Made by a program: the position numbers and the translations under genes | Notes under the pieces: model-generated | What the model was told of the DNA's origin: nothing | Database searches by the model: none | The model's input: the letters and a program-made list of their open reading frames with translations, nothing else | In this document: piece by piece, positions 35,573 to 64,000 of the stretch | Layout: every line of letters starts with the position of its first letter | Numbering within the stretch: the first letter of the stretch is position 1 | Origin: Cliona cf. orientalis | Lineage: Eukaryota; Porifera; Demospongiae; Clionaida; Clionaidae | Assembly (NCBI GenBank): GCA_963930775.1 | Contig: OZ005703.1 | Location: forward strand, 5,580,001-5,644,000 | Direction: 5' to 3' | Length of the DNA: 64,000 nt

Positions 35573-37990
35573 ATGAGCGTACTGGAATCATCGAATCGGC
35601 GCGGCCCTGAGTCGACAATAGCCAGCACTGTATTAACGTCAGTGCTCATTCTAGGTTACCTTTCTTCACAAGGTACACAAGCTGTAGCTCAAGGCCATCA
35701 TGGACCAGAGTCAGAGTGTCCCACCCTCTATCTACTGAATGTACAGCCTTATCCAGTCAGTGTAAAGGAGTCAACTGCTCTATTCATATGGGACAAAGCG
35801 TTTGAATTGATCCCTGCTGGTCACCTTGCTGCTGAACAAATCAATAACAGCCCCGACATTTTGCCAGGACGTCAACTGAAACTAATCAATATTGACTCAG
35901 AGGCCTGTGGAGTAAACTCCATCAGTAAAGGTTTCACTAATGTGTACAGAGAACTCGTTAATCTTAATCGTTCATGCATTGTGGGTGTCATTGGACTTTT
36001 TTGTTCCGCAATGACAAGTGCCATATCTCCCATCATCAGTCATCCAAACATTGGAGGGTACGTCCATATAGCAGCCTCCACCTCACCAGTGCATCGACAT
36101 ACATGTAGCGGAAATCATTCTCAGAATAACTCTAAGCTGTTCCACATCATAGAGTCTTCTAGTATATTCAATGAAGCCACACTGGCACTGATGCGTACCT
36201 ACAATTGGCACAGAATCACATCCATTCATACTGATTCAGAGTTCCACTCTTTGAGCACTTCTGTGGATTTTGTATGTAGGATTTCATCCACGCCTGAACT
36301 CAAGTTGGCAGCAAGCATACATATTGCAGAAAATTCACTGGCACATACTATGGAGAGGTTTGACGTTCTTAGACAGGAAAAAGCTCGGATCAGCTATTGG
36401 TCGGTGACCTATGATCAGGCAGCTTTTCTTTTGTGTACAGCTTATCAAAGAAATTTCACCTGGCCAGACTACGTCTACATAATTCAAGAACATGACATCA
36501 GCCGAATAGTTGAAATAGAAACATCATGCACTAAAGAGGAAGTAGTGACAGCAATGGAGGGAGTGTTTATCCTGAAATACAGGCTGTATGTTGAAAATGA
36601 CACTGAATTGGTCTCGGGAGTGAACTATAGTGAGTACGAACAACTCTATTCAGACAGGCTAAAGGAGTTTGCAAATACTACAAATGAAACTCTTCGAAAG
36701 AATGTGTATGCCAATTCTATGTATGATCAGGTATGGTCATTTGCTCTTGCAGTTAACAATTCTCTGTCGTTAATTGAATCACAGAACTTGTCCTTTGAAG
36801 ACTATGGGCTTGGAAAGAGTGTGCCAACCATACCAAATATCTTCAAAGGTGAACTCAAACATGTCACATTCCAAGGTGCTTCTGGACGAATAGATTTCAG
36901 TAAAAACCAGGGGAGTCCCACCGATGTCGACATATTCCAGATTCAGAAAGGAAAGCCTAAACTCATAGGAATTTATAATCCATATGATCGCAATATCACA
37001 TTAACAGAAGCAGCCCCACGTGTAAGGGATATCCCGAAGGACACATTTGATACTATTTATCAGCTACTCCCACCTTGGCTTGGAGCATGCATACTTGTGG
37101 CACAAGTAACACTGTTTTGTCTGATAACAACAAATTTGGTTCTGATTATCTTGTGGAGGAAGGAAAGAGAGGTAAAAGCAATCAGTCCTCTCTTAAGCAT
37201 ATTCATGATGATTGGGTGCTACTTCCTCTGTACTGCACCGCTGTTCACGACTATGTACAGGATGCTCATTATACATAATTCAAGCCTAGTTACATCCTTG
37301 TGTCATTTAAAGATATGGGCATCATCGATTGGAATGGAACTAATCTTATCAATTCTGTTTTTGAAACTACTACGGATTTACCACATATTTCATACTAAAC
37401 GTATGATAATGATGAGCGATTACTGGGAAGATAAGTACCTCGTCATCTATGCACTTCTGATATGTGCAGGAAAAGTTGTCGTTTTGATTCTTTGGAATAC
37501 TATCACCCCAATATCCTCCCACAACTCCGAAGAATATATATTATTAGACAACAGATCACCGTACTACTGGGTCACCACTCATTGCATTACGTCAGCAGAG
37601 TGGTCAGCAGCCATACTGCTCTACTCAGGAGTGCTGTTGTTCATGGTTGTGGTGTTGGCTATTGAGACTCGGCACATTAAGAATGACCCATACAAGGATA
37701 CAAAGAAGGTCAATATATTCATATTTTTTATCGTAACTGTCCTGATGATCTCTATTCCCCTATGGATCATCTTTGAGGAGATTGAGATTGAACTTGCAGC
37801 CAACATGTTTGAGTGGTTGACCTACATTTCTGTACCACTGCTCTGTCAAGTTTGTCTGTTTGTTCCAAAAACATTGCCACTAGCGATAATGAAATTGCTA
37901 TCAAAAAAAGAAATTAGACCACGAAAATTTCCCTCCATCACTTCAAAACGCTCCTCTCTATGGAAGGTATTGCAAGACAACGTAACATGA
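35573..37990 (+). CDS. class C GPCR, GABA-B-like receptor 1 of cluster
   Basis: 805 residues in one exon. I chose ATG 35573 (context GACAATGAG); an in-frame ATG 11 codons earlier adds no signal sequence. Order: hydrophobic signal segment (about 20-45), Venus-flytrap ligand-binding domain (about 55-485: CPTLYLLNVQPYPV, LIPAGHLAAEQINN, GLFCSAMTSAISPI, AASTSPVHR, YDQVWSFALAVNNSL, FQGASGRIDF), then seven membrane helices (about 500-765) with the TM3 CHLKIW site, the third-loop KDTKKVN and TM7 CLFVPKTLPLA. There is no cysteine-rich linker, which separates GABA-B-type receptors from mGlu and CaSR types. The C tail is about 30 residues, with no coiled coil. Many NxS/T sites lie in the ectodomain. 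Closest in the cluster to the gene at 43399-45795. Confidence 0.9.
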   Translation: MSVLESSNRRGPESTIASTVLTSVLILGYLSSQGTQAVAQGHHGPESECPTLYLLNVQPYPVSVKESTALFIWDKAFELIPAGHLAAEQINNSPDILPGRQLKLINIDSEACGVNSISKGFTNVYRELVNLNRSCIVGVIGLFCSAMTSAISPIISHPNIGGYVHIAASTSPVHRHTCSGNHSQNNSKLFHIIESSSIFNEATLALMRTYNWHRITSIHTDSEFHSLSTSVDFVCRISSTPELKLAASIHIAENSLAHTMERFDVLRQEKARISYWSVTYDQAAFLLCTAYQRNFTWPDYVYIIQEHDISRIVEIETSCTKEEVVTAMEGVFILKYRLYVENDTELVSGVNYSEYEQLYSDRLKEFANTTNETLRKNVYANSMYDQVWSFALAVNNSLSLIESQNLSFEDYGLGKSVPTIPNIFKGELKHVTFQGASGRIDFSKNQGSPTDVDIFQIQKGKPKLIGIYNPYDRNITLTEAAPRVRDIPKDTFDTIYQLLPPWLGACILVAQVTLFCLITTNLVLIILWRKEREVKAISPLLSIFMMIGCYFLCTAPLFTTMYRMLIIHNSSLVTSLCHLKIWASSIGMELILSILFLKLLRIYHIFHTKRMIMMSDYWEDKYLVIYALLICAGKVVVLILWNTITPISSHNSEEYILLDNRSPYYWVTTHCITSAEWSAAILLYSGVLLFMVVVLAIETRHIKNDPYKDTKKVNIFIFFIVTVLMISIPLWIIFEEIEIELAANMFEWLTYISVPLLCQVCLFVPKTLPLAIMKLLSKKEIRPRKFPSITSKRSSLWKVLQDNVT

Positions 37991-38870
37991 TCAAGGCTGA
38001 ATATGTTTCAATAGTGAGTTAGTCGTGTGTGTGATACATGTAGGCTATACAAATTGTGTGTCTCAGCTCTAACTAACTACTACCACAATAATAGTATTAT
38101 GCACAGTGCAATACTATAATAGACAATAATTATCGTACTGATCAGATCATGTTAAGGCGATATAATATGTATCATATATTATAATACAACATTTCGTTAT
38201 GAACATACTCGGTGGCATTAATTTCATGCATATTAATAATATAATGCCCATAGACGCTGAGATGACTTGCTTAAGGCCAGTTCATCTATGCAAATAATTT
38301 GAATTATGTGCACATAACATAAGTTAAATTAAGGGAGACTTTTAACATTGGAGTTAGGTTAATTGAGTTGTACAGGTTGCCATGTACGTGCATACCACCT
38401 CCTCCACATAATACTGATACACAAGACAAGATGATTCCCCAAAGGATCATAGGTATTCGAATTTTGATACCTTCTACCACAGTTCACTTAATACGTAATA
38501 ATAGCCCACACATAATACTATAGTCAGTATATCTCATGTAGTAGCAATGTTAACCATTATACTGTCTATAATTATTACGCCCTGATATTGTTGATTAAGC
38601 AATAATATTCATAATTATCCGCACAATTAGCTGTATGTGAAATTACGTAAAGCATCTGGGGACCCACTAGTGTAGTTCATATTCTAGCTATTTTATGCAG
38701 CGCAGTTAGAGCTTGTTGGAAATCATCTAAGGTACTTGGTATTGTTACTATAATAGTATACCTGATTAAGTTATTGTGGGCAAGGGTAGCTCTGTTTTGT
38801 TAGTTTTTGAACATGACTTGACTATGGATGTTCTACTGGAGAATGATCTTAGTGACATTAGATGTTGTTA
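37991..38870. other. intergenic, no gene seen
   Basis: AT-rich 3' flank of the receptor gene. No exon or clear repeat recognised. Confidence 0.4.
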
Positions 38871-38879
38871 CCATAGTAA

Positions 38880-39523
38880 CATATACCAACATCTAACTAT
38901 TTTGGTAGCAGTCACTACTGACCCGTTAACATACTAATGACCCTCTATCACCTCTAACTATCCCACAATTTGGGGTTGAAGATTATGTTGCTATGGTAAC
39001 TGCTACCAAATAATAGTTATCTGTCAGGGCTCATATTGCTCACTCACTGACAGATAACTATTTTGTTGTATCTAGCACTGTTGGTAATGTAGGATTATGT
39101 AATCCTGCACACCTAATTGGATTGTGGCTAGAGTGTATGGCATGTACTCTGGGTGACTGCTCAACAACCAGTTCTATAAAATTCTTGAACACTACTCTAC
39201 TGTACTTGGTTGCTTGGTAACTTACAACAAATATTTATACAAACACAAATAATAGTTATCTGTCAGTGAGTGAGCAATATGAGCCCTGCAGTGAGTGAGC
39301 AATATGAGCCCTGCAAGGGCTCATATTGCTCACTCACTGACAGATAACTATTTTGTTGTATCTAGCACTGTTGGTAATGTAGGATTATGTAATCCTGCAC
39401 ACCTAATTGGATTGTGGCTAGAGTGTATGGCATGTACTCTGGGTGACTGCTCAACAACCAGTTCTATAAAACTCATGAACACTACTCTACTGTACTTGGT
39501 TGCTTAGTAACTTACAACAAGTT
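38880..39523. repeat. dispersed repeat and duplicated 205-bp block with hairpins
   Basis: 38893-38990 matches 31765-31930. A block starting GGGCTCATATTGCTCACTCA at 39027 is repeated at 39317 (offset 290) and both copies run through CTTACAACAA (39236 and 39522). Ahead of each lies its inverted partner (GTGAGTGAGCAATATGAGCC), forming stems with AATAGTTATCTGTCAGTGAG; the second has that inverted piece twice. Confidence 0.82.
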
Positions 39524-39758
39524 CCTGTGGAAGCATGCACGCATGGCTGATGTATGACAATTGGGCCATAGATTACCACAATTACGTAATACCATGCATG
39601 ACGTCCACCGAAACAGGAAGTGATATCATGCATCACGCGAAGTGAGTGCATGCACATTCTAACAAGGTAATATGTCATAGCTGCTATATACACAAATCAG
39701 CTACATTATTTGGTGACCCTTATATACACATGTAATATAGTTCAAGAAACAGCAGCTA

Positions 39759-40337
39759 GGCCACACCAAACGAGACTTTAGTTTCCCATCCACCCAGGCG
39801 GGCGGTGTATTATGTATTATGTATTACTATGAATCTCATTATAATTCTTCTGAATCTCATTAATAATTCATGAATCTCATTGACCTTATTGACCTTTCCG
39901 GGCCGAATTAAAGAAGCTTGCCGAACTTCATCGATCATCGTCGGACTTCAGGATTGTTCAGTGCAACGATCAGTATCATATTACAGTATTATTGTACACT
40001 ATCGTTAGTCAGTAGCATAGCTTTTGTTGATAAATAATGCAATAAATGTGACCAGCTCTGAGAAAAGGGACCATTCGGAATTTCGTGTTTGTCGTATGTA
40101 GCTTGTAATTGTGTGTAGGGAATAATAATGTATAGTAGGTGTATCCGTTGTATGTTGGCATCAATACGCTGATACAACTATATTTACTATACTTCATTTA
40201 TAGAAAGCAAGTTGGTCATTGTCATGGTTTCATACTCAGTCTACTACCACGAACGGTCCGTTTTCTCATAGCAGGTCACAAATTATACAATAAAAACAGG
40301 CGGTGGACGGGAAACTAAAGTCTCATTTGGTGTGGCC
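39759..40337. mobile_element. PIF/Harbinger-like MITE
   Basis: Inverted ends of about 40 bp (GGCCACACCAAACGAGACTT, then TAGTTTCCCATCCACC) flanked by CTA and TTA, close to the TWA-type 3-bp duplication of Harbinger elements. A related element with exact TTA flanks lies at 46161-46406. A second MITE is nested inside (40047-40280). Confidence 0.75.
40047..40280. mobile_element. nested MITE, TGTGACC family
   Basis: Ends TGTGACCAGCTCTGAGAAAA and TTTTCTCATAGCAGGTCACA are inverted copies. Another full copy is at 58897-59131, and one-ended copies are at 57082 and near 51734, so the family has at least four members in the window. Confidence 0.8.
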
Positions 40338-40378
40338 TTAGATAGCTAGATACTCTTTTCTGACTCCTCCGCAGTATA

Positions 40379-40558
40379 CCGTAGGTCGGGTTTTAATTGT
40401 GAGTATCTATTAATTGCGAATTGCGAGTTTTTGTATATTTCGCAATTAAAAGATTCGCAAACATAAACGTGCATGTATACTACAGTACGGTACGGGGTCG
40501 TCTATCGCAATTATTGGAACGCAATTATTAAACTACGCAATTAAAACCCGTCCTACGG
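40379..40558. mobile_element. MITE, CCGTAGG family copy 1 (TA flanks)
   Basis: Ends CCGTAGGTCGGGTTTTAATT and its complement, flanked by TA. The interior has repeated GCAATTA and GCGAATTGCGAG pieces. Close to the copy at 60296-60491. Confidence 0.82.
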
Positions 40559-40905
40559 TATAGGCTATAAAGTACTGCTAGATTGAGTGCTATGCTTGTG
40601 GCTATCTCTGTTTGATGGCTTCATTAAGTAGCTACATTCTGTTTGTAACACCTTTGTCACACCCTGCATCAAATTTATGATAGAAACAGATGCACATGTA
40701 ATTATTGCAGTCATCAAAAGGGCCTTCAGATACTGTATTGCCTCACTTTAGTGGTAGCAAGCTAGGTGTGTATATTGCATACCATTGTGATAATTATTAT
40801 TATCTTCAGTACCAGTATAATACGTATAGGATATACATTTGCTTGTCATGGGAATATAAAGCTCTGTTACACGTGCTGATCCAGATTAAACTGAACTGGT
40901 TTAAA

Positions 40906-41115
40906 ACTGCGTTTACACACTAGTGCTTGATCCAGATTAACATTTTCATGGCCCATTACTTTACATGTAATCCACTTTTAATCCACATCAAGATGTGGAT
41001 TCTAATCCGGATTAACTAATCTGGATTAAAAGTGGATTAAGGTGTTTATACAGAGACTGGATTTCTTTAATCCGGATTCTAATCTGGATTAAGGACCTAG
41101 TGTAAACGGGGCTTA
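40906..41115. mobile_element. MITE rich in TTAATCC/GGATTAA
   Basis: Ends GCGTTTACACACTAGTGCTT and AGTGTAAACGGGGCTT are imperfect inverted copies. The interior has about ten palindromic copies of AATCCGGATT-like or AGTGGATTAA sequence that can form alternative stems. Confidence 0.72.
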
Positions 41116-41444
41116 AGCCACGGATGGAGGCACCAGTAACTGTAGCTGCAAGTACACTTTTAGGATTAAATCATTGTAATCAATTAATCATAAACAATAA
41201 TATAGGTAGTAATGCTGATTGCTAGTAGACCAATACCATCCTCAATAATATTTCTTAGAATACTGAGGTAAGTATGGTAAAGGTCGTCAATCGCTCCACA
41301 TGTACACGTTATGAGAATTCGTAAAAATTTAATGCTAATTTCTTACGTTAGATTGGATCATATGTTGTATTTGATTAACTATGGTAAATGAATTTTATAC
41401 ACCACTAGTTCCACAGGATTTGACTTCTATCGAAATTGGAATAG

Positions 41445-42134
41445 CTAGTAGTGATCCATAGGGTGCCTTTAGTCCTAGACATTGATGCATGGAGAGTGGG
41501 TGGACCTGCACAGTTTAGTTTTCTTTATAGCCAGTGGCACAAATTTTGGAGAAAAAAGGCACAGTTGGCAAAGCATAGCCACCGAAAAATAGGCCAATCA
41601 CTCACATAGATACGTGTGCTCCAATCAAGTTTCTATACAAATGGCACCAAAAAGTACCCAAAGAGGAGGTAGCTAAGAGCTGTTGCGAGAACAACTGTGA
41701 TGAGGAATATAAAAAGGGGCACCTTTATTGTGTCCTTGAAGTGAGGTTTCTTGATGCGGCGAGTCTGAGTAGCCATGAACATGACAAAGATGATCAGAAT
41801 TCCTGAGTACAAGGATGTGGCTAATAGCCAAAGTACCCGGTTTTGGCTATTGCATTCGATGCTGAATTGATAGTGTGGTGGTGTTGCTGAAGGAATGTAC
41901 TCTCGACTGATTTTATGATGTAAGGTGTCTAAGTAAATCCAAAGGAATAGGACAAATACTTTCACTGAGCATACATGTATCGTCTGGATATGGCACCACA
42001 TTTAGTAGGTACAAAGTTGAGCAGTTTGTCTGCATGTTCTCACTGCTTGCTGTAGATCCTCCAAAGATCAGACTGAATTCGAAGATTACTAACAGGATGA
42101 AGCTTGGTATTTTATATATGAATGAACTACGCAT
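41445..42134 (-). pseudogene. GABA-B-like receptor pseudogene with internal deletion
   Basis: The first 50 codons (from ATG 42132-42134) encode a signal peptide and the start of the flytrap domain (NCSTLYLLNVVPYPDD). They are joined near 41975 directly to the TM4 region (SVKVFVLFLWIYLDTLHHK), so about 1.7 kb encoding almost all of the flytrap and TM1-TM3 is missing, compared with the receptors at 47011 and 54374. The frame also shifts at the junction. TM5-TM6 remain readable (LLATSLYSGILIIFVMFMAT), then the frame shifts again near 41640, and C-terminal homology continues to about 41445. It belongs to the same subgroup as those two genes. Confidence 0.88.
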
Positions 42135-43398: not shown

Positions 43399-45795
43399 CT
43401 AGATTCTCTTGATGCATCTTCCATGACCAAGATTGTTTTTGTATCTTTTTGATATGAATTTCACTGCAAGAGGCAATGTTTTTGGAACAAAAAGACAAAT
43501 TTGACACAGCAGGGAGAGGAAGAAGTAGCCCAACCACTCAACCACGTTGGCTCCAATTTCAATCTGGATCTCATCAAAGATATGTCTGAGAGGAACGGAG
43601 ATTGCCAGGACAATCACAACCAAAAATATGAATGCGTTAACTTTCTTTGTGTCCTTGTATGGGTCATTCTTAATGTGCCGAGTCTCAATAGCCAACACTA
43701 CTACCATGAATAATAGCACTCCTGAGTAGAGCAGCGTGATAGAAGACCACACTACTGATGTAACACAGTGAGTGGTAGTCTGATAATATGGTAAGCCAGT
43801 GCATGCTGGCACGTATTCTAGGTAGTTTTCTGAGTATATTGGGTCAATGCTGTTCCAAAGAATCAAAAGAAGAACTTTTCCGAAGCATATCAGAAGAGCG
43901 TAGACGACAAGGTACTTATCTTCCCAGTATTTGCTCATCTCTGTCATCTGCTTTTCATGAAATATGTGATAAATCCGTAGTAGTTTCAAAAACAGTGTTG
44001 ATAAGATAAGTTCCATTCCAATCAACGATGGCCATATTTTCAAATTACACAAGGCTGTAACTAAAACCATGTCGTCAGTAATAACAAGCATTCGATACAT
44101 AGTCATGAACAGCGGTGCAGCACAGAGGAAGTAGCACCCAATCATCATGAATATGCTTAAGAGAGGACTGATTGCTTTTACCTCTCTTTCCTTCCTCCAT
44201 AAGATAATCAAAACCAGATTTGTGGTTATTAAACCAAACAGTGTTACTTGTGCCACAAGTATGCATGCTCCAAGCCAAGGTGGGAGTAGCTGAAAAACAG
44301 TGTCAAATGTATCTGGTGGTATATCATTGTTATGGGGAGCTGCTTCTGTTAGTGTAACGTTATGACTATAGGGATTGTAAACTCCTATGAGTTGTGGCTT
44401 TCCTCTCTGAACTTGGAAAATGTTCACATGGGTGGGACTTCCCTGGTTTTCACTGAAATCGATCCGACCAGAAGCACCTTGGAATGTGACATGTTTGAGT
44501 TCACCTTTAATGATATTTGATAAAATTGACATTCTTTTCCCAAGCCTGTAGTCTTTCAAGGATAAATTTTGTGATTTAATCGACATTAGAGAATTATTAA
44601 TTGCTAGAGCAAATGCCCATACTTGATCGTACAGAGTGTTGGCATACACATTCTTCTGAAGACTATCATTTGCTGAGTTTGCAAACTCTTTTAGCCTATC
44701 TGTATAGAGCCTGTGGTACTCACTATAGTTCACTCCAGAAACCAACTCAGTGTCATTTTCAACATACAGTCTATAGTCTAGGATAAAAACTCCCTCCATT
44801 GCTGTCAGTGTTTCCTCTTTAGTACACGACGTTTCAATTGTAAGTATTCGACCAACAGTTTGTTGCTGGATTATGTAGACATATCCAGGCCAAGTAAAAT
44901 TTCTTTGATAAGCCATGCACAAAAGATAAGCTGCCTGATCATGGGTGACTGACCAATAGCTGATCCGAGCACCTATATTTCTGATAATATCAAACTTTTC
45001 CATGATTTGCATATGTGCTGCATCTACAATGGGTATGCGCGTCACTAACTCAAATTCAGGGTTGGATGAAATCCTTTTTTTAAAATCAATGGATGTACTC
45101 ATGAAGTAGAACTCTGAATCAGTATGGATGGATGTGATTCTTTGCCAATTGTAGGTGCGCATCAGTGCCAGTGCGGCTTCATTGAATGCACTGGAAGACT
45201 CTATGATGTGGAACAACCCAGAGGCTTTGCAGTCACTAGCACGATGAACTGGTGAGGTAGAGGCTGCTATATGGACGTACCCTCCAATGTTTGGATGACC
45301 GATGATGGGAGATATGGCACTTGTCATTGCAGAACAAAAAAGTCCAATGACACCCACAATACATGTTTGATTAAGATTCACGAGTTCTCTGTAGACATTA
45401 GTGATACCTTTACTGATGACATTAAATCCGCAAGCTTCTGCATCGATGTCGATAATCTTCAGTTCATGTCCGAACAAAATATCCGAGCGATTGTTGATTT
45501 GTTCAGCAGCAAGGTGGCCAGCAGGGATCAATTCAAACGCTACATCCCAAATACCTTGCCTAACAGTGCCTAACCCATTCGCACTGACTGGATATGGCTG
45601 TACATTCAGCAGATAGAGAGTGGGACAATCAGGTCCCTGACTTTCTTGAGACGGAGCATCTGGCGTAATACTTACAGATAGGTGACATGGCAGTAGCAGC
45701 ACTACTAAAGTTGGTAGTGTCCAGGACGCTAACTGATTCCACCAACTTGAACCTAATACTCCCATGCCTACAGTACAGTGACAATGAAGCTGCAT
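43399..45795 (-). CDS. class C GPCR, GABA-B-like receptor 2 of cluster
   Basis: 798 residues, one exon. Met1 at 45795 or Met11 (better context GGCATGG) could start; both precede a signal segment (WTLPTLVVLLLPCHLS). Flytrap domain about 50-480 (LLNVQPYPVSANG, FELIPAGHLAAEQINN, CSAMTSAISPIIGHPNIGG, YDQVWAFALAINNSL, FQGASGRIDF). Seven membrane helices about 495-760 with TM3 CNLKIW, third-loop KDTKKVN and TM7 CLFVPKTLPLA. Short basic C tail. It is most like the plus-strand receptor at 35573, suggesting an inverted duplication, and lies in the same orientation as the next two receptors. Coupling to Gi/o, as in animal GABA-B receptors, is possible but not shown. Confidence 0.9.
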   Translation of the reverse strand: MQLHCHCTVGMGVLGSSWWNQLASWTLPTLVVLLLPCHLSVSITPDAPSQESQGPDCPTLYLLNVQPYPVSANGLGTVRQGIWDVAFELIPAGHLAAEQINNRSDILFGHELKIIDIDAEACGFNVISKGITNVYRELVNLNQTCIVGVIGLFCSAMTSAISPIIGHPNIGGYVHIAASTSPVHRASDCKASGLFHIIESSSAFNEAALALMRTYNWQRITSIHTDSEFYFMSTSIDFKKRISSNPEFELVTRIPIVDAAHMQIMEKFDIIRNIGARISYWSVTHDQAAYLLCMAYQRNFTWPGYVYIIQQQTVGRILTIETSCTKEETLTAMEGVFILDYRLYVENDTELVSGVNYSEYHRLYTDRLKEFANSANDSLQKNVYANTLYDQVWAFALAINNSLMSIKSQNLSLKDYRLGKRMSILSNIIKGELKHVTFQGASGRIDFSENQGSPTHVNIFQVQRGKPQLIGVYNPYSHNVTLTEAAPHNNDIPPDTFDTVFQLLPPWLGACILVAQVTLFGLITTNLVLIILWRKEREVKAISPLLSIFMMIGCYFLCAAPLFMTMYRMLVITDDMVLVTALCNLKIWPSLIGMELILSTLFLKLLRIYHIFHEKQMTEMSKYWEDKYLVVYALLICFGKVLLLILWNSIDPIYSENYLEYVPACTGLPYYQTTTHCVTSVVWSSITLLYSGVLLFMVVVLAIETRHIKNDPYKDTKKVNAFIFLVVIVLAISVPLRHIFDEIQIEIGANVVEWLGYFFLSLLCQICLFVPKTLPLAVKFISKRYKNNLGHGRCIKRI

Positions 45796-47010: not shown

Positions 47011-49371
47011 TTAGTACTGGTATTTGACTAGTTTCTTAGTATACCGTAAAGTGCCTTTATTCCTAGATATTGATGGAGAGTGGGTGGACCTGCACAAAAT
47101 TGTTTTCTTTATAGCCAGCGGAAGCAGTTTTGGAGAAAACAGGCACAGTTGACACAGCATGGCCACAGAAACATAGGCCAACCACTCACTTATGTGTTCT
47201 CCAATTTCTATATGCACAGCACTGAAGAGGACCCGAAGAAGTAGAGTTATTGAGAGAATAATCGTGATGAGAAAAACAAAAATGTTCACCTTTTTTGTGT
47301 CTTTAAAGTAGGCCTTTTTGATGTGGCGAGTCTGGGTAGCCATGAACAGCACAAAAACGATAAGAATTCCCGAGTATAAGTATGTAGCTAGTAGCCAAAG
47401 TGCCCGGTTTTGGCCATTGCATTCAATGCTGACTTGATAATACGGTGGGGTTGCTGAAGGAACATACTCTGGACTGATTTTAGGGTGTAAAGTGTCCAAG
47501 TAAGCCCAAAGAAATAGGAGAATTATTTTAACTGAACATATCAAAAGTAAGTACAGAAATAAGTATTTATCCGACCAGAATTTTCCCGTTTTATGAAAGG
47601 ACCGAAAGACGTGAAAAAGTCTCAGCAATCTCAATGAAAGAGTTGCAAATATCAAGTCAACTCCTATGGACAGTGACCATTGCTTTAAATTACACAAAAA
47701 AGTAAGCAGAGTGACATTGTGTATCAAAACCATTTCCTTCACTGCAAGAACAATTGAAGCTGCACACAGAAAGTAGCAACCAATCATGATTGGTATGCTC
47801 AAGATTGGACCGCTTGCCTTGATTTCGCTTTCCTTTCTCCACCAAAGAAGTAGCACTGTATTTGTGGTGATCAAGCACAAAAGTGTGAACTGAATCACTA
47901 ATATACAGCCTCCTAGCCATAGTGGAAGCAGGATGTAGACTGTCTGAAAAGTGTCCTCGGGAATGCTGTCAGGAAAATTTTTGTGAGTGATATTCTTATG
48001 AAATGGATCATATACACCGATAAGAATTTCTTCCCCGTTCTTGATTTGCTTAATATCAACAAATGAAGGAATACTTCGATTTTGATCGAACATTATTCTT
48101 CCAGTCGCACCCTGAAAGTCCACTTTACTCAGTTTTTCTTTGATGATATCAGATAGTGATTTTGTATTTCCAATTCTGTAATCATCAAAAGATAGATTCC
48201 GTGCCTTAATATCTGGAAGGGAACTATTTAGAGCAAGTGCAAAAGCCCACACTTGATCATACAATGTGTTAGCATAAATATTTTCATTCACCTTATCTGT
48301 TCTGTTCACTGCCTCTTCCCATAGTTTATCTGTATACCTCTGTTGGAATTCTTCATAGGTCCATCCAGAATAGAGTTCGACATCATTTTCAACATAGATT
48401 CTGTACTGCAGCAAGAACACTCCCTCCATTGCTTGTATCATCTGTTCACGGGTGCACGATGTTTCAGGTTTGAGTATATCACTCACAGAGCGTTCTTGAA
48501 GGATGTATACATGTCCAGGCCAAAGGTAGTTTCTTTTGAATGCTTCACAGAGGAGAAAGGAACTCTCATCAACAGTAACGAGCCAGTAGCTAATGCGGAC
48601 CTCCTGGTTGTTGATTATGTTAAAAGTATCAGTAATGCCATGATTAATAATATGAGTACTTTGCTGTGATGTCTCAATTGGAGTTCCTACAATCAGCTCA
48701 ATATCTGAAAGTGAAGCAGCACGACGCGCAAAATCATTGGATAAAGTCATGAAGTAGAAGCCCAGAGCATTGTGCATCAAACCAATTCTTCTCCAGTTAA
48801 AGGTCATCATCATCTTGATGACAGCTTCATTGAACACACTTGATGATGCAATGGTATGAAATACATCCCTAAAGATAGGATCTTGACGATGTTCAGGTGA
48901 GGTAGAAGCAGCCAACTTTACATAATCGACCCCAGCTGCAGGACGGCTGATAATGGGAGCTAGGGCATTTGTTACCATGGAGCAGTACAGTCCAATGATA
49001 CCAACGACACAAGAGCTTCTGTTATTGAGAATAGGGAACACCAGTTCCATGTGCAAATTCACAACCGCTTTAGTTATAGTACTCCTTCCACAAGACTCTG
49101 AATCAATGTCAATAACTTCTAGTTTATATCCTGGTAACAGTTCAGAGTGATTGTTTATTTGCTCTGCAGCAAGGTGGCCTGCTGGGACTAGGTCCAGGCC
49201 CCGATCCCAACCTGCATTCTCTCCATTATCTGGAAAGGGCACCACGTTTAGTAGGTACAAAGTTGAGCAGTTGGTCTGAGTTTTCTCACTGCTTGCTGTG
49301 GACCCTCCAAGGATCAGACAGAACATTACTACTGACAGGCTGAAGGTAGTCGAACTTGGCATCTTGTACAT
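47011..49371 (-). CDS. class C GPCR, GABA-B-like receptor 3 of cluster
   Basis: 786 residues, one exon. Signal peptide (TTFSLSVVMFCLILGG), then the flytrap domain about 30-470 (CSTLYLLNVVPFPDNGENAG, LVPAGHLAAEQINN, CSMVTNALAPIISRP, YDQVWAFALALNSSL, FQGATGRIMF). Seven membrane helices about 485-750 with CNLKQW at TM3, KDTKKVN in the third loop and CLFSPKLLPLA at TM7. C tail of about 30 residues, no coiled coil. It differs from receptors 1-2 in the loop after LLNV (DNGENAGWDRGLDL). Very similar by eye to receptor 4 and to the pseudogene at 41445-42134. Confidence 0.9.
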   Translation of the reverse strand: MYKMPSSTTFSLSVVMFCLILGGSTASSEKTQTNCSTLYLLNVVPFPDNGENAGWDRGLDLVPAGHLAAEQINNHSELLPGYKLEVIDIDSESCGRSTITKAVVNLHMELVFPILNNRSSCVVGIIGLYCSMVTNALAPIISRPAAGVDYVKLAASTSPEHRQDPIFRDVFHTIASSSVFNEAVIKMMMTFNWRRIGLMHNALGFYFMTLSNDFARRAASLSDIELIVGTPIETSQQSTHIINHGITDTFNIINNQEVRISYWLVTVDESSFLLCEAFKRNYLWPGHVYILQERSVSDILKPETSCTREQMIQAMEGVFLLQYRIYVENDVELYSGWTYEEFQQRYTDKLWEEAVNRTDKVNENIYANTLYDQVWAFALALNSSLPDIKARNLSFDDYRIGNTKSLSDIIKEKLSKVDFQGATGRIMFDQNRSIPSFVDIKQIKNGEEILIGVYDPFHKNITHKNFPDSIPEDTFQTVYILLPLWLGGCILVIQFTLLCLITTNTVLLLWWRKESEIKASGPILSIPIMIGCYFLCAASIVLAVKEMVLIHNVTLLTFLCNLKQWSLSIGVDLIFATLSLRLLRLFHVFRSFHKTGKFWSDKYLFLYLLLICSVKIILLFLWAYLDTLHPKISPEYVPSATPPYYQVSIECNGQNRALWLLATYLYSGILIVFVLFMATQTRHIKKAYFKDTKKVNIFVFLITIILSITLLLRVLFSAVHIEIGEHISEWLAYVSVAMLCQLCLFSPKLLPLAIKKTILCRSTHSPSISRNKGTLRYTKKLVKYQY

Positions 49372-54029: not shown

Positions 54030-54165
54030 TGCACGTACTACTTGTCCCAAGATGCATGCCGATGATTGTATGCATGGTATTCCATGACAATTTGTAATAC
54101 TGTGCATGACATTGTAGAGTGCATGTAGCTGCTGTAATCTGTCATGGAACAAGTAGTACGTGCAA
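54030..54165. repeat. small foldback
   Basis: GCACGTACTACTTGTCCC and GAACAAGTAGTACGTGC are inverted copies about 100 bp apart, flanked by diverged copies of GCCAGTTTGTGAAT. Confidence 0.7.
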
Positions 54166-54373
54166 ATATGCCAGTTTGCTATTCATGAACTGGCATGTTT
54201 GAATTAGTATACCTGTTACTGGATTAAGCATGAGAATTATGATGAGATAGGTAGCTAGTGCAAGTGCGTAACTGACGCAACCCACGTTATAGATTAATGA
54301 TCCACTTATTTTTTCTGTGTCATGATTATTAGCAAATCAATAGCAAGATTACAGCTCTAGTAATACCTAAGTA

Positions 54374-56746
54374 CTAGAAATTGATTTGTTTTCCAGCTGG
54401 ATTGGTATTATTATTAGTGAACCATAGAGTTCTGTTATTCCTAGACATTGATGGAGATTGGGTGGACATGCATACTGGTAGTTTGGTTTTCCTTATAGCC
54501 AGTGGAAACAGTTTTGGAGAAACTATGCACAGCTGACACAGCAAGGCCACAGAAAAATAGGCCAACCACTCACATACGTGTGCTCCAATTTCTATATGAA
54601 TGGCACTGAGAAGTACCCAAAGAGGTAGAGCTGTTGTGAGAATAATCGTAACAAGGAATATAAAAAAATTCACCTTTTTTGTGTCTTTAAAGTTAGCCTT
54701 TTTGATGTGGCGAGTCTGGATAGCCATGAACAGCACAAAGACAATCAGAATTCCCGAGTACAGATATGTAGCTAGTAGCCAAAATTCTCCGTTTTGGCTG
54801 TGGCATTCGATGCTGACTTGATAGTGTGGTGGGGTTGCTGAAGGAACATATTCTTTACTGATTTTAGCATGCAAGGTGTCCAAGTAAGTCCAAAGAAGTA
54901 GGAGAATTGCTTTCACTGAGCATATCAAAAGTAAGCACAGAAATAAGTATTTATCCGACCAGAATTTCCCCGTTTTACGAAAGGACCGAAAGACGTGAAA
55001 AAGTCTCAGCAATCTCAATGAAAGAGTTGCAAATATCAAGTCAATCCCTATGGATAGTGACCATTGCTTTAAATTACACAAAAAAGTAAGCAGAGTGATG
55101 TTGTGTATCAAAACCATTTCTTTCACTGCAAGAACGATTGGAGCTGCACACAGAAGGTAGCAACCGATCATGATTGGTATGCTCAAGATTGGACCGCTTG
55201 CCTTGATTTCGCTTTCCTTTCTCCACCAAAGATGCAGCACAGTGTTTGTAGTGATCAAGCACAGAAGTGTGAACTGAGTCACTAATATACAGCCTCCAAG
55301 CCACAGTGGAAGCAGGATGTAGATAGTCTTAAAAGTGTCCTTGGGTAAGCTATCAGGAAAGTTTTGGTGAGTGATATTCTTATGAAATGGATCATATACA
55401 CCAACAAGGATTTCTTTCCCATTCTTGATTTGTATAACATCAACAAATGAAGGAACACTTCGATTTCTGTCGAATATTATTCTTCCAGTAGCACCCAGAA
55501 AGTTCACTTTACTCAATTCACCTTTGATGATATCAGATATCGCTTTTGCATTTCCAATTCTGTAATCATTGAAGGATAGATTCTGTGCCTTAATATCTAG
55601 AAGAGAACTATTTAGAGCAAGTGCAAAAGCCCAGACTTGATCATATAGAGAGTTAGCATAAATATTTTCTTTCACCTTATCTGCTCTGTTCACTGCCTCT
55701 TCCCATAGTTTATCTGTATACCTCTGTTGGAATTCTTCATAGGTCCATCCAGAAGAGAGTTCTACATCATTATCAACATACAATCTGTACTGCAGTAAGA
55801 ACACTCCCTCCATTGCTTGTATCATCTGCTCACGAGTGCATGATGTTTCAGTTTCTAGTATACCATTTACGGAGCATTCTTGAAATATGTACACATGTCC
55901 AGGCCAAAGATGGTGTCTTTTAAATGCTTCACAGAGGAGAAAGGAGCTCTCATCAACAGTAACGGACCAGTAGCTAATGCGGACCTCCTGGTTGTGTATT
56001 ATGTTAAAAATATCAGTAATACCGTCATTGATAATCCTGAATCGCCCATGATCGCTATTTTGCAGTGATATCTCAACTGGAGCTTGAATAATCAGCTCAA
56101 TATCTGAAAGTGAAGCAGCATGACGTGCAAAATCATTGGATATGGTCTTGTGGTAGAAGCCCAGAGCATCATATATCAAACCAATTCTTCTCCAGTTAAA
56201 GGTCATCATCATCTTGATGACAGCTTCATTGAACACATTTGAAGATACAATGGTATGAAATACATCCTTGAAGGTAGGATCATAACGATGTTCAGGAGAG
56301 GTAGAAGCAGCCAATGTGACGTAATCAAACCCAGGGCGACTGACAATGGGAGCTAGGGCGTTTGTCACCATGGAGCAATACAGTCCAATGATACCAATGA
56401 CACACGAGCTTCTATTATTGAGAAAAGGAGTCATCAGTTCCGTGTGTAGATTCACAATTGCTTTAGTTATGGTAGTTCTTCCACAAGACTCTGAATCAAA
56501 GTCAATAAGCTCTAGTTTGTATCCTGATAACAGTTCAGAGTGATTGTTTATTTGCTCTGCAGCAAGGTGGCCTGCTGGGACTAGGTCCAGGCCCCGATCC
56601 CAACCTGCATTCTCTCCATCGTCTGGATAGGGCACCACATTGAGTAGATACAAAGTTGAGCAGCTTGTCTGAGTGTTCTCACTGCTTGCTATGGACCCTC
56701 CAAGGATTATTACTATTGACAGGCTGAACATAGTCAAACTTGACAT
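54374..56746 (-). CDS. class C GPCR, GABA-B-like receptor 4 of cluster
   Basis: 790 residues, one exon. Signal peptide (MFSLSIVIILGGSIASS), flytrap domain about 28-470 (CSTLYLLNVVPYPDDGENAG, LVPAGHLAAEQINN, CSMVTNALAPIVSRP, YDQVWAFALALNSSL, FLGATGRIIF), seven membrane helices about 485-750 (CNLKQW at TM3, KDTKKVN third loop, CIVSPKLFPLA at TM7) and a C tail of about 40 residues rich in Asn. In the TM7 motif it has Val-Ser where receptors 1 and 2 have Phe-Val. Close tandem relative of receptor 3, same orientation, about 5 kb apart, which suggests local duplication. Confidence 0.9.
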   Translation of the reverse strand: MSSLTMFSLSIVIILGGSIASSENTQTSCSTLYLLNVVPYPDDGENAGWDRGLDLVPAGHLAAEQINNHSELLSGYKLELIDFDSESCGRTTITKAIVNLHTELMTPFLNNRSSCVIGIIGLYCSMVTNALAPIVSRPGFDYVTLAASTSPEHRYDPTFKDVFHTIVSSNVFNEAVIKMMMTFNWRRIGLIYDALGFYHKTISNDFARHAASLSDIELIIQAPVEISLQNSDHGRFRIINDGITDIFNIIHNQEVRISYWSVTVDESSFLLCEAFKRHHLWPGHVYIFQECSVNGILETETSCTREQMIQAMEGVFLLQYRLYVDNDVELSSGWTYEEFQQRYTDKLWEEAVNRADKVKENIYANSLYDQVWAFALALNSSLLDIKAQNLSFNDYRIGNAKAISDIIKGELSKVNFLGATGRIIFDRNRSVPSFVDVIQIKNGKEILVGVYDPFHKNITHQNFPDSLPKDTFKTIYILLPLWLGGCILVTQFTLLCLITTNTVLHLWWRKESEIKASGPILSIPIMIGCYLLCAAPIVLAVKEMVLIHNITLLTFLCNLKQWSLSIGIDLIFATLSLRLLRLFHVFRSFRKTGKFWSDKYLFLCLLLICSVKAILLLLWTYLDTLHAKISKEYVPSATPPHYQVSIECHSQNGEFWLLATYLYSGILIVFVLFMAIQTRHIKKANFKDTKKVNFFIFLVTIILTTALPLWVLLSAIHIEIGAHVCEWLAYFSVALLCQLCIVSPKLFPLAIRKTKLPVCMSTQSPSMSRNNRTLWFTNNNTNPAGKQINF

Positions 56747-58359: not shown

Positions 58360-58896
58360 CCAAGTTAAAAGAAGTCGATAAGGAAGTGTATGTGTGCATG
58401 CGAAAATCTTCCAAGCTTTTACACTTGCATGGACATACTTAACAACTTTTATTTTAGGTTACCAACTTACATTGTGTTTATTGTTGTCCATTGAGGTCAG
58501 GTAACCATGGCGCCCCTCATATTCTCTGACAATGGTGGAAACTGTAGCAAAATTATGTTATGGTATTAATTATTGTGATCAAGCTTTGCTGTATACAAAT
58601 GTGAATGTATCAAATAAAAAGGAAACTTAAAGCATAAATCAATAGTTATTGTTAAAGAACCATTTCTGCTTATTACCTCAATATCCAACTTGCATGCATG
58701 CTTTCTACAAATTGTGAGTATACTTGTACCAAAGTAGCTATTAGAGTAAATCCACTACACATGGAGTACATTGCATGGTACATAATAATGTTTGAAGCTA
58801 CATGTACATACAACCAACTACTACTTTTATACGATAATGTAGTTATGAGTGTACTATTTGTGTAGCTTTAGCCATAAACACATGTATAATAAATTA
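58360..58896. other. intergenic, no gene seen
   Basis: AT-rich; no exon or repeat recognised. Confidence 0.35.
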
Positions 58897-59131
58897 TGTG
58901 ACCAACTGTGAGAAAAGGGACCATTTGGGACTTCATGTTTGTCGTATGTAGCTTGTACTAGTAGAGTATAATGTATATTTTGTAGGTGTATCTGCTGTAT
59001 GTTGATGTCAATACGCTGATACAAGTATACTCACTACTACATTTGTAGAAAGCAAGTTGGACATCGCCATGATAAAAATTGATCTTGTTTCTTACTAACA
59101 TGAATGGTCCCTTTTCTCATAGCAGGTCACA
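58897..59131. mobile_element. MITE, TGTGACC family, full copy
   Basis: Ends TGTGACCAACTGTGAGAAAA and TTTTCTCATAGCAGGTCACA, with TA on both sides. Very similar along its length to 40047-40280 (shared TTTGTCGTATGTAGCTTGTA). Confidence 0.82.
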
Positions 59132-60295
59132 TATAGAGGCATACTGCAGCTGCACTGACAATTGATCCCACCCCCCCAAAAAAAAAACTTCACATGAAAC
59201 ATTGCTTATTTTTATGGGGACTGGCAAACTACTCAGGATGATTATTAGCTATCCCTTCTGATTGAGAAAAGAGCATACTTGATAAGATGTCCTTGACCCT
59301 AGCTTGTACGTATTATAAATACTAAGCAAACAAAGAGCTGACTCTCCTGTCCAAAGAGATAAAGGACAAAAATTAATGGCTAAAACGATTGATATAAACT
59401 AAATGTTATATAATATGTTTTGTATTTAGCTATTATTTCCAATACCCTGGACTACCAGCAGTGACATACATATATACCATAATGTGAGCAAAAAATGACT
59501 GTTACTGTGGTATTAAATAATAATTATTATTTGTGAAAAGCAGGATCATCAGTGAGAATTCTAGCTAACCGTCTTTGCCAGGCTATTATTATGGGTACAT
59601 ATTTTTTGTGTATTACATTGAGAGCTTACCTAGATCAGAAAATTAAGTATAGTCCTTCCATTAGACATGTCAAATACAGGTACCAAGTTCTGAACCTGGT
59701 AGAAAGGTCATGAAAGATAATATCCATGTGGTAACATACAGTATATAGCTCGAACTAGGGGCATAAACTTACTTATTTTGCAAAAATAAATGCTTAGAAG
59801 CTCCATTTGTCACTTTTGCATCCCATAGCTTGACCAAGGACCTTCCTTTTGACCGCTTTCAAACAGAAGCTCACTCAAAAAAAGCGCAGCTGCTTTGCTC
59901 CACTTTTAAATTGAAGTCACATGCTTATCACATGCCTACTTAAGATCATGGTTATCAGAGCTGACCACCAAGTACTGGTGGTCACTACACACTCAAATTG
60001 GTGTAAAACTCAAACACACGCGAATCCACCATGGTGGAAATGGTATAAAGTGTGATTTTTCCACCAGTGAGGTGGAACTTTCCACCTCTTTTTTTGCAGT
60101 GCAGACATCAATGGTCTCTTTCTGATACCGTAGCACGTCACGAGTTACAAAATTTAAAAGCAACATACTTCCGGACAGAACACCTCTCAGAACATTAATT
60201 TTATTACAGACTAAGATAGTGGGTGCATGTGACTAGCTATGCAACTTTAAATTTGTATGTAATTTTATGGAGTTATAGATAAATAGCAGTAGTTA
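59132..60295. other. intergenic, no gene seen
   Basis: Noncoding. Around 59965-60090 there is a cluster of GGTGG/CCACC palindromic pieces (CCACCATGGTGG, CCACCAGTGAGGTGG) that can form stems. No exon recognised. Confidence 0.4.
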
Positions 60296-60491
60296 CCGTA
60301 GGTTGGGTTTTAATTGCGAGTATCTATTAAATGTGAATTGCGAGTTTTTCTACGTTTCGCAATTAATAGATTCGCAAACATAAACGTTCACGCATACTAC
60401 AGTACGGTACGGGGTCGTCCATCGCAATTATTGGAGCCTGACTTGACTAGAACGCAATTATTAAACTACGCAATTAAAACCCGTCCTACGG
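60296..60491. mobile_element. MITE, CCGTAGG family copy 2 (TA flanks)
   Basis: Ends CCGTAGGTTGGGTTTTAATT and complement, TA flanks. Relative to copy 1 it has an extra GAGCCTGACTTGACTAG near the right end, close to 60440. Confidence 0.82.
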
Positions 60492-61930
60492 TATCTGCTT
60501 CCGATACAGAATTCTATAATGTTATACACGAACAGAGCACGGTTGCTATGGTGTAACTATACTACTTTGCAAGTATCTGAACTATAGTGTAGACGATATA
60601 GTTGCTATAGAATAAGTATTGTTCTATTTCTCTCAGACACTAATTATTGTCAAATGGGTGTAATTCTATTACTATGGCATACCGGTACCATGACAATGTG
60701 CTAATAATTTTCAAATTATACCTACAATTGGAAGCCTGTATAACTTTATGTTATCTACTAATCCCATTTACCCTAGGGCCTACACACATGCATAAGTGGT
60801 CACGTAGCTAAAACAATAATTAGTTTTGCTTTTTGTTATTGTTATCATCATTGCCAACACATGCACACAAAAAAAAAATGTCAAGGTCTAGCTAAGCGTC
60901 ATCGGCGATGAGTACAAGAGTCAGTGAAAAGTAGGGGCAGGAAAGGACTCCATGCACTAAACACCATAAACTGAGTCGTGTTTTTTTGTTGGCCACGCCT
61001 ATCATTTACACCCAATAAAATTATATACTATTCATGTAGAATTTAAGGTAGGTATTGTATGGGTACCGAACTTATTCTAATCATCAATTAGCATCTAATA
61101 ATTTTATATAATACTAACTATTGTAATATAATTGACCTTTACCAGAAAAACGCACATTTTTTTTCCACAGAATAAGTACGGTACTATTAGTACCTGGTAT
61201 TTGTGGCTTGCAAAAGTTGTCCAGTGCATGCGGGGTGCCATAGCTATGTGCTTGAGAGAGCTCACCAAAGCAGGAAGTGACATCATTAATGATTGTCAAT
61301 TGCCTTGCTGTACCCAGAAAGGCTAAGCAATGGTACAGCAGCACCTTGATGTAAGGTAAAGGGTCGCTGGCAACTACGACCATTACCACTTATTTGCCCA
61401 GCTCATTGTTTTAGAATTGCTTGACATACGTACCTTTAATACATGACGATAATAGTATTATTGGTGTGGTCGGCCGCGGCCGGGCAGCTCATCATAGTGG
61501 CTCGAATGCAACGGCCTGGACACGTACATTGAGACAACCGCTTCCTGCTCAGCGACGACCATTTCCCAATAGGATGCCTGAATGATTTGCGCATGCGCAA
61601 GCTCCACCTGGCAGTATATACCCATAATATTGCAGTATAGTAAACATTACCGAGAGGTGAGATTCACGCGGCAATTGGATCTCAGTGGAAGTGATGTAGC
61701 GTAATCGAATAGTCTAACGGCATTCCAATGAAGCCTCTCCCTCTAGCTAGCAACAGCGACTAATTACTGAGATACCAGTACACGCGAATCACGATTGAGC
61801 CGCGGATGTTTGTTTATTTTGCTGGCTCAAACATAATATTAGACTCTGCTGATTAAAGGCTTAAATCTAGCTGCCTTGATGAGTTCAAATTGTAGTCTTC
61901 TACTAACACCGGTAGATATTCGCAGCCACA
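60492..61930. other. upstream region of receptor 5
   Basis: No exon recognised. A TATATACCC and CATAATATTGCAGTATAG stretch at 61613-61642 lies about 300 bp before the receptor start and may be its promoter. A GC-rich stretch (CGGCCGCGGCCGGGC) lies near 61472. Confidence 0.4.
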
Positions 61931-64000
61931 ATGCTCTCTCCAATGATGAAGATAGTCTCTGCTATTGTAGGTTTATCTCTAGTCAGTCTGGCTTGGTTAC
62001 AGCCTTCCATCAGTGAGAGTGCAGATGACTTAAACAGTCAAAATTGCACCGTTCTACAGCTGCTAAACGTACAACCTTTCCCTGATCCAGATGGTGGATT
62101 TTCTGGGGGAATGAGTCTAATTCCAGCGGCTCTTCTAGCTGCTAAAGAGATCAACAATCGTTCCGATATCTTGCAAGGATTTGAGTTGGAAATTGTCAAC
62201 ATTGCATCAGAAGGCTGTTCCAGAAGTACGATTTACAAAAAAGGGCTGATCAATTTCTACCGACAGCTGGTGGATCGATCTCGCCATCCCTCTGAGTGCA
62301 TAGTGGGTGTTATGGGATTCCCTTGTTCCAGCGCAACAAACATCCTTGCACCCATCACTGGCCACAGAAACATTGACCTCGTGACACTGGCAAATTCTGC
62401 TACCCCAGAGCACCGAAATACCATGCAATACCCCAATTTATTTCATACCATATCATCCTCGCGTGTACACAGCAAGGTGCTTGTGTCCCTCATGGAAAAG
62501 TTTAATTGGAGGAGGATTGGCGTAGTCTATGATTCAGTCAACATCTTCTTTCGAACCACAGCAAATGATTTTGTGCAGAGAGTAAATAACCTTTCTGATG
62601 CAGAGTTAACTGTTTCTGTCCCCATTATTCCTGCTTCAGCTGTTGCCATTCAGGAAGCTTTCAATATTATTAATGCTGAAGAAGCTAGAATCACCTACTG
62701 GCAAGGAAATGACGATCAGAATGCTCTTTGTTTATGTGAAGCTCATCACAGGCAGTTTCTTTATCCTGGATATGTCTACATCTTGCGATACAACCCAAAA
62801 ATCTTGGAAAACATACTGGCAACAAAAACTGAGTGCAGCAGGGATGAACTGATACGGGCAATGGAAGGAGTGCTTATGTTGGACTATAGACCGGAAGTTA
62901 ATAATGATACAGTATTATTTTCTGGATGGAACTACAGTGAATTCCGTCAAAGATATACTCACGAGCTGGATGAATATGCTAAACTTATCAATACCAGTTT
63001 AGAAACAATCATTTATGGAAATTCATTCTACGATCAGGTATGGGCTTTTGCTCTTGCCCTTAACAATTCACTTCCATCAATTCGTTCAGAGAATCTGTCA
63101 TTTTCAGATTACACTATTGGAAATCCTGGACCTATATCAAGTATAATCAAACATGAGCTTACAAAGCTATCATTTCAAGGTGCCTCTGGGAGGATAGAGT
63201 TTGATGATAACCATGAAATCTTCTCATCCGTTAGCATCCTTCAGATCCAAAATGGGACTGCTAAACAGATTGCTATCTATAATCCATTCACAAGAAATGC
63301 CACCTTTAACGAAAACTTTCGAGGTGATATTCCAAGCGATACCTTTGATACAGTTTACAACCTTCTTCCTCTTTGGCTTGGAGTGTGTATTCTTGTCCTA
63401 CAAGGGCTACAATTTGGTGCAATTACCATAGATGTGATCCTTCTGTTATGGTGGAGGAAGGAACGAGAAGTCAAAGCGACTAGTTTATTGCTCAGTGTGC
63501 TCTTATCTGTCGGGTGTTACCTGCTATGTGCTGGGCCAATCATACGAATAATATATAGAGTGATTGTGATACAGAATTCGACCTTGCATACATTCCTATG
63601 CGGACTCAGTCTCTGGACAACAACCCTAGGACTGGATCTAGTGATAGCAACACTGCTGTTCAGACTATTCAGGGTAGTCCACGTATTTCGATCGTTTCAG
63701 AAGAAAAGCAAGTTTTTGTCTGATGAGTACCTTGTCCTGTATTCGCTTCTGGCATGCACTATTAAAATAGTTTTTCTAATAATCTGGAGCATTGTTGATC
63801 TCTATCGCTCACACACGGACAGTACATACGTTCCTAGAACAAATCCGCCTCAATATAGGGCAGTGATAGCCTGTACATGTGATCAACTAGGCATATGGCT
63901 GGCAATATCATACCTCTACACTTACATCTTACTCTCGCTCGTGCTGTTCTTAGCGATACAGACTCGGCGTATCAAGAAGGCATTCTTCAAAGACACAAAG
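61931..64000 (+). CDS. class C GPCR, GABA-B-like receptor 5 of cluster (runs off the window)
   Basis: From ATG 61931 the frame is open for 690 codons to the window edge. Signal peptide (IVSAIVGLSLVSLAWL), flytrap domain about 30-455 (CTVLQLLNVQPFPD, SLIPAALLAAKEINN, GFPCSSATNILAPI, NSATPEHR, YDQVWAFALALNNSL, FQGASGRIEF), then membrane helices from about 478 through TM5 (YLYTYILLSLVLFLAIQTRR) and the KDTK of the third loop at the very end. It is the most divergent of the cluster: AALLAAKEINN replaces GHLAAEQINN, and CGLSLW replaces CNLKxW at TM3. TM6, TM7 and the C tail lie beyond the window. Confidence 0.88.
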   Translation, partial: MLSPMMKIVSAIVGLSLVSLAWLQPSISESADDLNSQNCTVLQLLNVQPFPDPDGGFSGGMSLIPAALLAAKEINNRSDILQGFELEIVNIASEGCSRSTIYKKGLINFYRQLVDRSRHPSECIVGVMGFPCSSATNILAPITGHRNIDLVTLANSATPEHRNTMQYPNLFHTISSSRVHSKVLVSLMEKFNWRRIGVVYDSVNIFFRTTANDFVQRVNNLSDAELTVSVPIIPASAVAIQEAFNIINAEEARITYWQGNDDQNALCLCEAHHRQFLYPGYVYILRYNPKILENILATKTECSRDELIRAMEGVLMLDYRPEVNNDTVLFSGWNYSEFRQRYTHELDEYAKLINTSLETIIYGNSFYDQVWAFALALNNSLPSIRSENLSFSDYTIGNPGPISSIIKHELTKLSFQGASGRIEFDDNHEIFSSVSILQIQNGTAKQIAIYNPFTRNATFNENFRGDIPSDTFDTVYNLLPLWLGVCILVLQGLQFGAITIDVILLLWWRKEREVKATSLLLSVLLSVGCYLLCAGPIIRIIYRVIVIQNSTLHTFLCGLSLWTTTLGLDLVIATLLFRLFRVVHVFRSFQKKSKFLSDEYLVLYSLLACTIKIVFLIIWSIVDLYRSHTDSTYVPRTNPPQYRAVIACTCDQLGIWLAISYLYTYILLSLVLFLAIQTRRIKKAFFKDTK

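Follow-up and report, generated by a model that had tools for sequence, protein, structure and literature searches.

GABA-B-like receptors in a gene cluster of the sponge Cliona cf. orientalis: a pocket without the GABA-amine glutamate and a possible sense for other small molecules

What do the GABA-B-like receptors of sponges sense, if they lack the residue pairing with the amine of GABA? Sponge papers name such genes metabotropic GABA receptors and cite them in debates on pre-neuronal signalling. If none of those found in a chromosome-level demosponge genome holds GABA in the known way, this name is misleading, and the GABA pharmacology of sponges is left without a known receptor—as is a large set of animal chemoreceptors without a ligand. 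None of the titles and abstract openings listed by literature searches concerned a test of the GABA-amine residue in sponge receptors; the question may be treated by Leys et al. 2019 (Integr. Comp. Biol.), a paper cited in PMC8067216. The expansion of sponge GABA-B-like receptors and the doubt about GABA as their ligand are themselves already known: the published description of Ephydatia muelleri—like Cliona a demosponge with local GABA-B-like duplication—reports more than 120 mGABA receptor genes, 48% of them on three scaffolds, one cluster of more than 50 and heavy local duplication on scaffold 22, and leaves the ligand open between GABA and/or organic acids (Kenny et al. 2020, PMC7385117). 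What Cliona would add is the apparent lack of any GABA-type pocket in the class C receptors surveyed in one chromosome-level sponge genome, plus an acid proposed at the place used by mGlu receptors. As a bioeroding sponge of reefs (PMC12639293), Cliona cf. orientalis might have a chemical sense of ecological interest.

The window, meaning the whole stretch of 64,000 nucleotides analysed here (G000:C15:5580001-5644000), lies on chromosome 15 (8,350,398 bp) of a genome searched as 216.8 Mb in 149 contigs; the published assembly odCliOrie1.1 is described with 217.17 Mb, 307 scaffolds and a BUSCO value of 80.8% (PMC12639293). One copy of a silicatein active-site motif is present in the searched genome, with none in the reversed control. 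Five intact single-ORF class C receptors, R1–R5, are found in the window, each with a venus flytrap fused straight to the 7TM domain, and, as the preliminary description had recognized, they are intron-free, of GABA-B architecture and accompanied by one pseudogene. In Pfam, each of the five hits ANF_receptor and 7tm_3, with no further family at E<=0.001; the cysteine-rich NCD3G domain is absent from 5/5. R5 is cut by the window end and is complete as L015. Pocket codons are named below by their GB1b or mGlu equivalents.

35573..37990, plus strand: R1, 805-aa GABA-B-like receptor; S130 equivalent 36005-36007, Thr at the S153 equivalent 36080-36082, Glu at the mGlu D318 equivalent 36488-36490, Tyr at the GB1b E349 equivalent 36707-36709
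41450..42119, minus strand: pseudogene of an R3/R4-type receptor, middle missing and frame broken
43399..45795, minus strand: R2, 798-aa GABA-B-like receptor; S130 equivalent 45331-45333, Thr at S153 45256-45258, Gln at D318 44863-44865, Tyr at E349 44644-44646
47011..49371, minus strand: R3, 786-aa GABA-B-like receptor; S130 equivalent 48979-48981, Thr at S153 48901-48903, Glu at D318 48493-48495, Tyr at E349 48274-48276
54374..56746, minus strand: R4, 790-aa GABA-B-like receptor; S130 equivalent 56372-56374, Thr at S153 56300-56302, Glu at D318 55877-55879, Tyr at E349 55658-55660
61931..64000, running past the window, plus strand: R5, 793-aa frame (complete in L015); S130 equivalent 62327-62329, Ala at S153 62399-62401, Tyr at E349 63014-63016

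In the pseudogene, the N-terminal 49 residues are fused to residues ~608-778 of an R3/R4-type gene. The strand order is +, − (pseudogene), −, −, −, +; hence, of the tandem cluster described earlier, the clustering stands, but a strict head-to-tail array does not. R1 and R2 are 73% and R3 and R4 82% identical, the remaining pairs 43-50%, and near copies of R1 occur outside the window (L061, 96%; L062, 94%). The cluster extends beyond both sides of 35573..64000: C15:5.41-5.70 Mb bears 18 of the 150 scored 7tm_3 places, which are the best of 413 candidate places in the genome, all above the cut-off and a few being parts of one gene. Alignments across the cluster comprise 16 receptors from these 282 kb. 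For the 13 closest pairs among them, dN/dS is 0.15-0.42 in both domains; by this coarse measure, these are working genes under purifying selection. Another receptor copy, with stop codons (G000:C15:5577814-5579868) ends ~130 bases before the left edge of the window. A 429-bp unit, repeated 3.2 times with 89% match (window 33965-35331), ends ~240 bases before the R1 start codon and may be part of the R1 upstream region; a scan for TATA-like elements gave nothing useful, and no tRNA or Rfam family was found.

Human GB1 uses S247, S270, H287, Y367 and E466 with baclofen (PMC9360005), and the ligand contacts named for GB1 are Ser130, Ser153, Trp65 and His170 in LB1 and Tyr250 and Trp278 in LB2 (PMC7411975). 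By our own arithmetic, GB1b numbering equals human GB1a minus 117, which turns the baclofen set into S130, S153, H170, Y250 and E349. Compared with this pocket, R1–R5 bear a Tyr at the E349 position (5/5), five residues ahead of YD, and not one acidic residue in the seven positions preceding YD in any of the five—in agreement with the preliminary description, whose "Glu465", presumably the rat number, is one off human E466. Its statement that both carboxylate serines are kept holds for the S130 equivalent (5/5); the S153 equivalent is Thr in R1–R4 and Ala in R5. The remaining contacts are replaced as well: His170 by Ile, Tyr250 by Thr or Asn and Trp278 by H/Q/R/C/K across R1–R5 (MAFFT), while the W65 equivalent is kept in R1–R4 and is Phe in R5. 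The reported replacement of the WY contact is borne out, with W278/Y279 reading HD, QT, RS and CS in R1–R4, respectively, and a two-residue insertion there in R5. Over the 16 cluster receptors, the E349 column is Tyr in 15 and His in one, and the S130 column Ser in 15 and Thr in one.

These assignments do not depend on a single program. MAFFT and phmmer (R1 against human GB1) align the Tyr on the GB1 Glu, and hhalign against an mGlu-like set aligns it on the homologous mGlu Lys409 column; phmmer against fly GB1 and hhalign against GB1 leave the Glu opposite a gap. An acid at the GABBR1 Glu is, thus, given by none of the three programs, and the pocket columns are consistent, by eye, among MAFFT and both hhalign alignments. 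For the R4 flytrap (residues 25-465), a structure model with pLDDT 90.8 and pTM 0.91 fits GABA-B flytraps best among PDB entries, reaching a query TM-score of 0.82, against 0.67 for mGlu8. In this model, the E349-equivalent Tyr is residue 339, immediately before helix 340-363, and the D318-equivalent Glu is residue 266, immediately after strand 261-265. R1–R5 hence share with human and fly GABBR1/GABBR2 the architecture, the flytrap fold, the S130 anchor, the YD motif and the 7TM motifs, but are only 22-24% identical to human GB1, lack its Glu349, His170, Tyr250 and Trp278, fall into a separate clade and, judging from its length, bear a C-terminal tail that would not accommodate a long coiled coil.

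The preliminary description regarded the missing glutamate as a peculiarity of a local family, and this does not hold on the genome level. None of the 65 long class C ORFs read (591-935 aa, five of them <700; 57 GABA-B-like and 8 mGlu-like) has Glu or Asp at the E349 column. The GABA-B-like ORFs display Y 32, W 11, H 7, F 2, R 2, Q 2 and L 1 there, and the mGlu-like ones K 3, I 2, Y 1, F 1 and H 1. A local loss of one residue is thereby ruled out. In addition, six fragments (L063–L068) carry Y, Y, I, V, Q and Q when read by eye, again without an acid; ORFs and fragments were picked by score and place, that is non-randomly, against 150 matched 7tm_3 places. As a control within the genome, the mGlu-like L003–L005 keep the glutamate set S-T-D-Y-D-K. 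The alignment is hence able to show a kept pocket, and the missing Glu is not an alignment failure.

The six fragments seem to belong to multi-exon GB1-like genes, as judged from their short separate frames, and lie at G000 C9:4.68-4.72 Mb, C12:1.21-1.22 Mb, C7:4.61 Mb and C9:6.19 Mb. Their lobe 1 is closer to human GB1 than that of the intron-free receptors, the L063 piece being 52.7% identical over 55 residues. These genes could be GB1 orthologues in which the Glu was lost. The ORF closest to whole human GB1, L009, is yet closer to GABBR2 (2e-85 vs 2e-75) and represents a GABBR2-like gene. A hidden canonical GABBR1 was sought with human GB1 as a whole (best 66 of 401 candidates scored), with its two pieces and with a codon pattern, and no Glu was found. 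This pattern, E-x4-YD-x-x-W, is blind to FD/HD variants and to intron-split codons; it gives 67 matches genome-wide vs 52 for a reversed-pattern control, with 43/67 stop-free. No stop-free match lies within 20 kb of the listed multi-exon GB1-like places, and all 67 are more than 20 kb from any of the 150 7tm_3 places, the closest at 20.1 kb. Two pattern matches, L069 and L070, have no receptor-like frame. In Trichoplax, for which 37 GABA-B-like receptors are given, one gene is described as orthologous to GABBR1, whereas the Cliona census yielded none with a GB1 pocket; placozoan and cnidarian GABA-B-like expansions are, like that of Cliona, non-bilaterian and lineage-specific (PMC10133484).

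"Not conserved", the wording of the preliminary description, implies a loss, and the branching does not favour this. A quick maximum-likelihood tree (LG+G4) unites 55 of the 57 GABA-B-like ORFs in a single clade outside {GB1, GB2, L009, L025} with SH-aLRT 98-99, the program flagging L009 and L025 for their long branches. The 16 cluster members are one clade inside it, and GABBR1/GABBR2 orthology of the 55 ORFs is not supported by the branching. Hence, the Glu is best read as a trait of the GB1 branch, unless the multi-exon genes, unplaced in this tree, turn out to be orthologous to GB1. The claim that the ectodomains diverge more than the membrane part is weak: flytrap identity is below 7TM identity in 7/10 pairs of R1–R5 (R5 taken from L015) by 1.4-4.3 points, and in 53/120 pairs of the 16 aligned members, with means of 0.539 and 0.522. 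The Cys pair of TM3 and ECL2, FxPK in TM7 and D6.35 are kept in 16/16. Taken as a set, 13 pocket columns are neither more conserved nor more variable than the remaining flytrap (3643/10000 samples). The W278 column ranks at the 98th percentile for flytrap entropy among the 16 members and varies in 3/4 recent subclades, while 5.6% of flytrap columns vary in at least three. Pairwise dN/dS and column variability revealed no positive selection on the pocket, with dS saturated between subclades.

For the mGlu receptors, we take S165, T188, D208, Y236 and D318 to form the alpha-amino-acid pocket, in which Asp318 presumably holds the alpha-amine of glutamate and D208 is its second contact. An acid missed by the preliminary description stands at this D318 column in 31/57 GABA-B-like ORFs; it is Glu in R1, R3 and R4, Gln in R2, Tyr in R5 and Gly in GB1. 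Over the columns S165-T188-D208-Y236-D318, R3 and R4 read S-T-S-Y-E, R1 S-T-S-H-E, R2 S-T-S-Y-Q and R5 S-A-S-F-Y, and the D208 column is Ser in 16/16 cluster receptors. Glu occupies D318 in 8/16 members, accompanied by Thr at T188 in 8/8 and by Tyr at Y236 in 6/8. Thr at S153 and Glu/Gln at D318 occur together in 9/16 and are both missing in 7/16, the latter being R5, four fellow members of its clade, L029 and L030; each of these two states is found in two separate subclades of the tree. Tested over the 57 receptors with independent pairs on the tree, this coupling of Thr and acid does not reach significance (median p 0.375). Counting Glu/Asp only, 10 have Thr/Ser without the acid and 9 the acid without Thr/Ser (19/57 unpaired). 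For experiments, the 9-vs-7 split within one 282 kb cluster offers a small testable panel.

The mGlu-like receptors of the same genome (L002–L008, L045) share with the window receptors the class C flytrap and the Ser/Thr anchor, and with R1, R3 and R4 the acid at D318; the window receptors differ in bearing no cysteine-rich domain, Ser for D208 and Tyr for Lys409. Five of the mGlu-like receptors are themselves without Lys409 (L002 Phe, L006 His, L007 Ile, L008 Ile, L045 Tyr) and keep S165, T188, D208, Y236 and D318. Judged by these residues, they probably recognize other amino acids than glutamate.

With no acid at the Glu position, the LB2 contacts for GABA gone and one clade formed in the genome, some different ligand is more likely than GABA—here the earlier suggestion of other ligands stands, its restriction to a local trait does not. 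We tentatively propose, with a probability of roughly 40% and on the basis of sequence and a structure model, that these sponge class C receptors of GABA-B architecture sense small molecules other than GABA by the following scheme. Lobe 1 would anchor a carboxylate by the kept Ser at the S130 equivalent and, in R1–R4, by the Thr aligned with mGlu T188. In R1, R3 and R4, the Glu aligned with mGlu D318 would hold the alpha-amine, with help in R2–R4 from the Tyr at the mGlu Y236 column. The Tyr standing where GABA-B has Glu349 and mGlu has Lys409 might face the side chain of the ligand, and the highly variable residue at the W278 position might tune selectivity between paralogues. Lobe closure would then be relayed to the 7TM domain without a cysteine-rich domain. 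R1–R4 are, as the leading reading, most likely chemoreceptors for amino acids and not for GABA. R5-type pockets probably bind something else: for R5, its four clade mates and L029/L030, devoid of Thr and acid, a different ligand is suggested, perhaps an organic acid. Points against the amino-acid reading are the Ser at D208 (16/16), the lack of significance of the Thr/acid coupling over the 57 receptors, the unremarkable conservation of the 13 pocket columns as a set, the Gln instead of an acid in R2 and the His at Y236 in R1. A wider picture, which we consider doubtful, would confine Glu349-based GABA recognition to the GABBR1 branch (or regard it as lost in all of this sponge), with the large sponge GABA-B-like repertoire recognizing amino acids via the acid at the D318 place, and the known sponge responses to GABA running via a receptor with a different GABA site.

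The Ser/Thr anchor could also serve carboxylates that carry no amine—organic acids or other metabolites—so that nothing in the pocket would hold an amine. Such receptors would fit an S130 column kept in 15/16 beside an amine Glu absent from 16/16 and the lack of acid or Gln at D318 in 7/16, and the same idea is published for Ephydatia (PMC7385117). However, the Glu at the mGlu amine-binding column in 8/16, with T188 Thr in 8/8 and Y236 Tyr in 6/8, speaks against it, and this reading appears rather unlikely. Less probable are ligand-free partner subunits that function, GABBR2-like, only in heterodimers. The aromatic residue at the Glu column recalls the Phe of human and fly GABBR2, and position 6.37 is the GABBR2-type Lys in 16/16, where GB1 has Arg; the anchor Ser is nevertheless kept in 15/16, the clade does not correspond to GABBR2, to which L009 is the similar gene, and numerous tandem copies with a variable contact site might be better explained by ligand binding. 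That GABA is still bound, with a different residue holding its amine, for instance the Glu in the D318 column, is quite improbable: sponges do respond to GABA, which prevents contractions in Ephydatia (PMC11883242, PMC10133484), and the genome searches yielded no class C receptor bearing the canonical Glu, but R1–R5 have other residues in place of GB1 Glu349, Tyr250, His170 and Trp278, and, as the D318 position holds an alpha-amine, a gamma-amine may fall short of it.

Apart from the receptors, the window contains mobile and repetitive elements. A 365-codon open frame at 27170-28264 (minus strand) gave no hit in Pfam at E<=0.01. On the minus strand at 18326-26363 lie fragments of a Ty3/Gypsy-like retroelement, with integrase H2C2 and rve at 21010-22395 and reverse transcriptase and RNase H at 22696-23847. 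On the same strand, a PNMA match under the Pfam cut-off lies at 24657-26363, and an OTU-protease match is found in the reading frame 18326-19213, adjoining the retroelement pieces. An 84-bp minisatellite forms long arrays in both orientations at 5520-10268 and 14703-15316, and separate 71-bp arrays with 96-99% match are found at 17248-18043.
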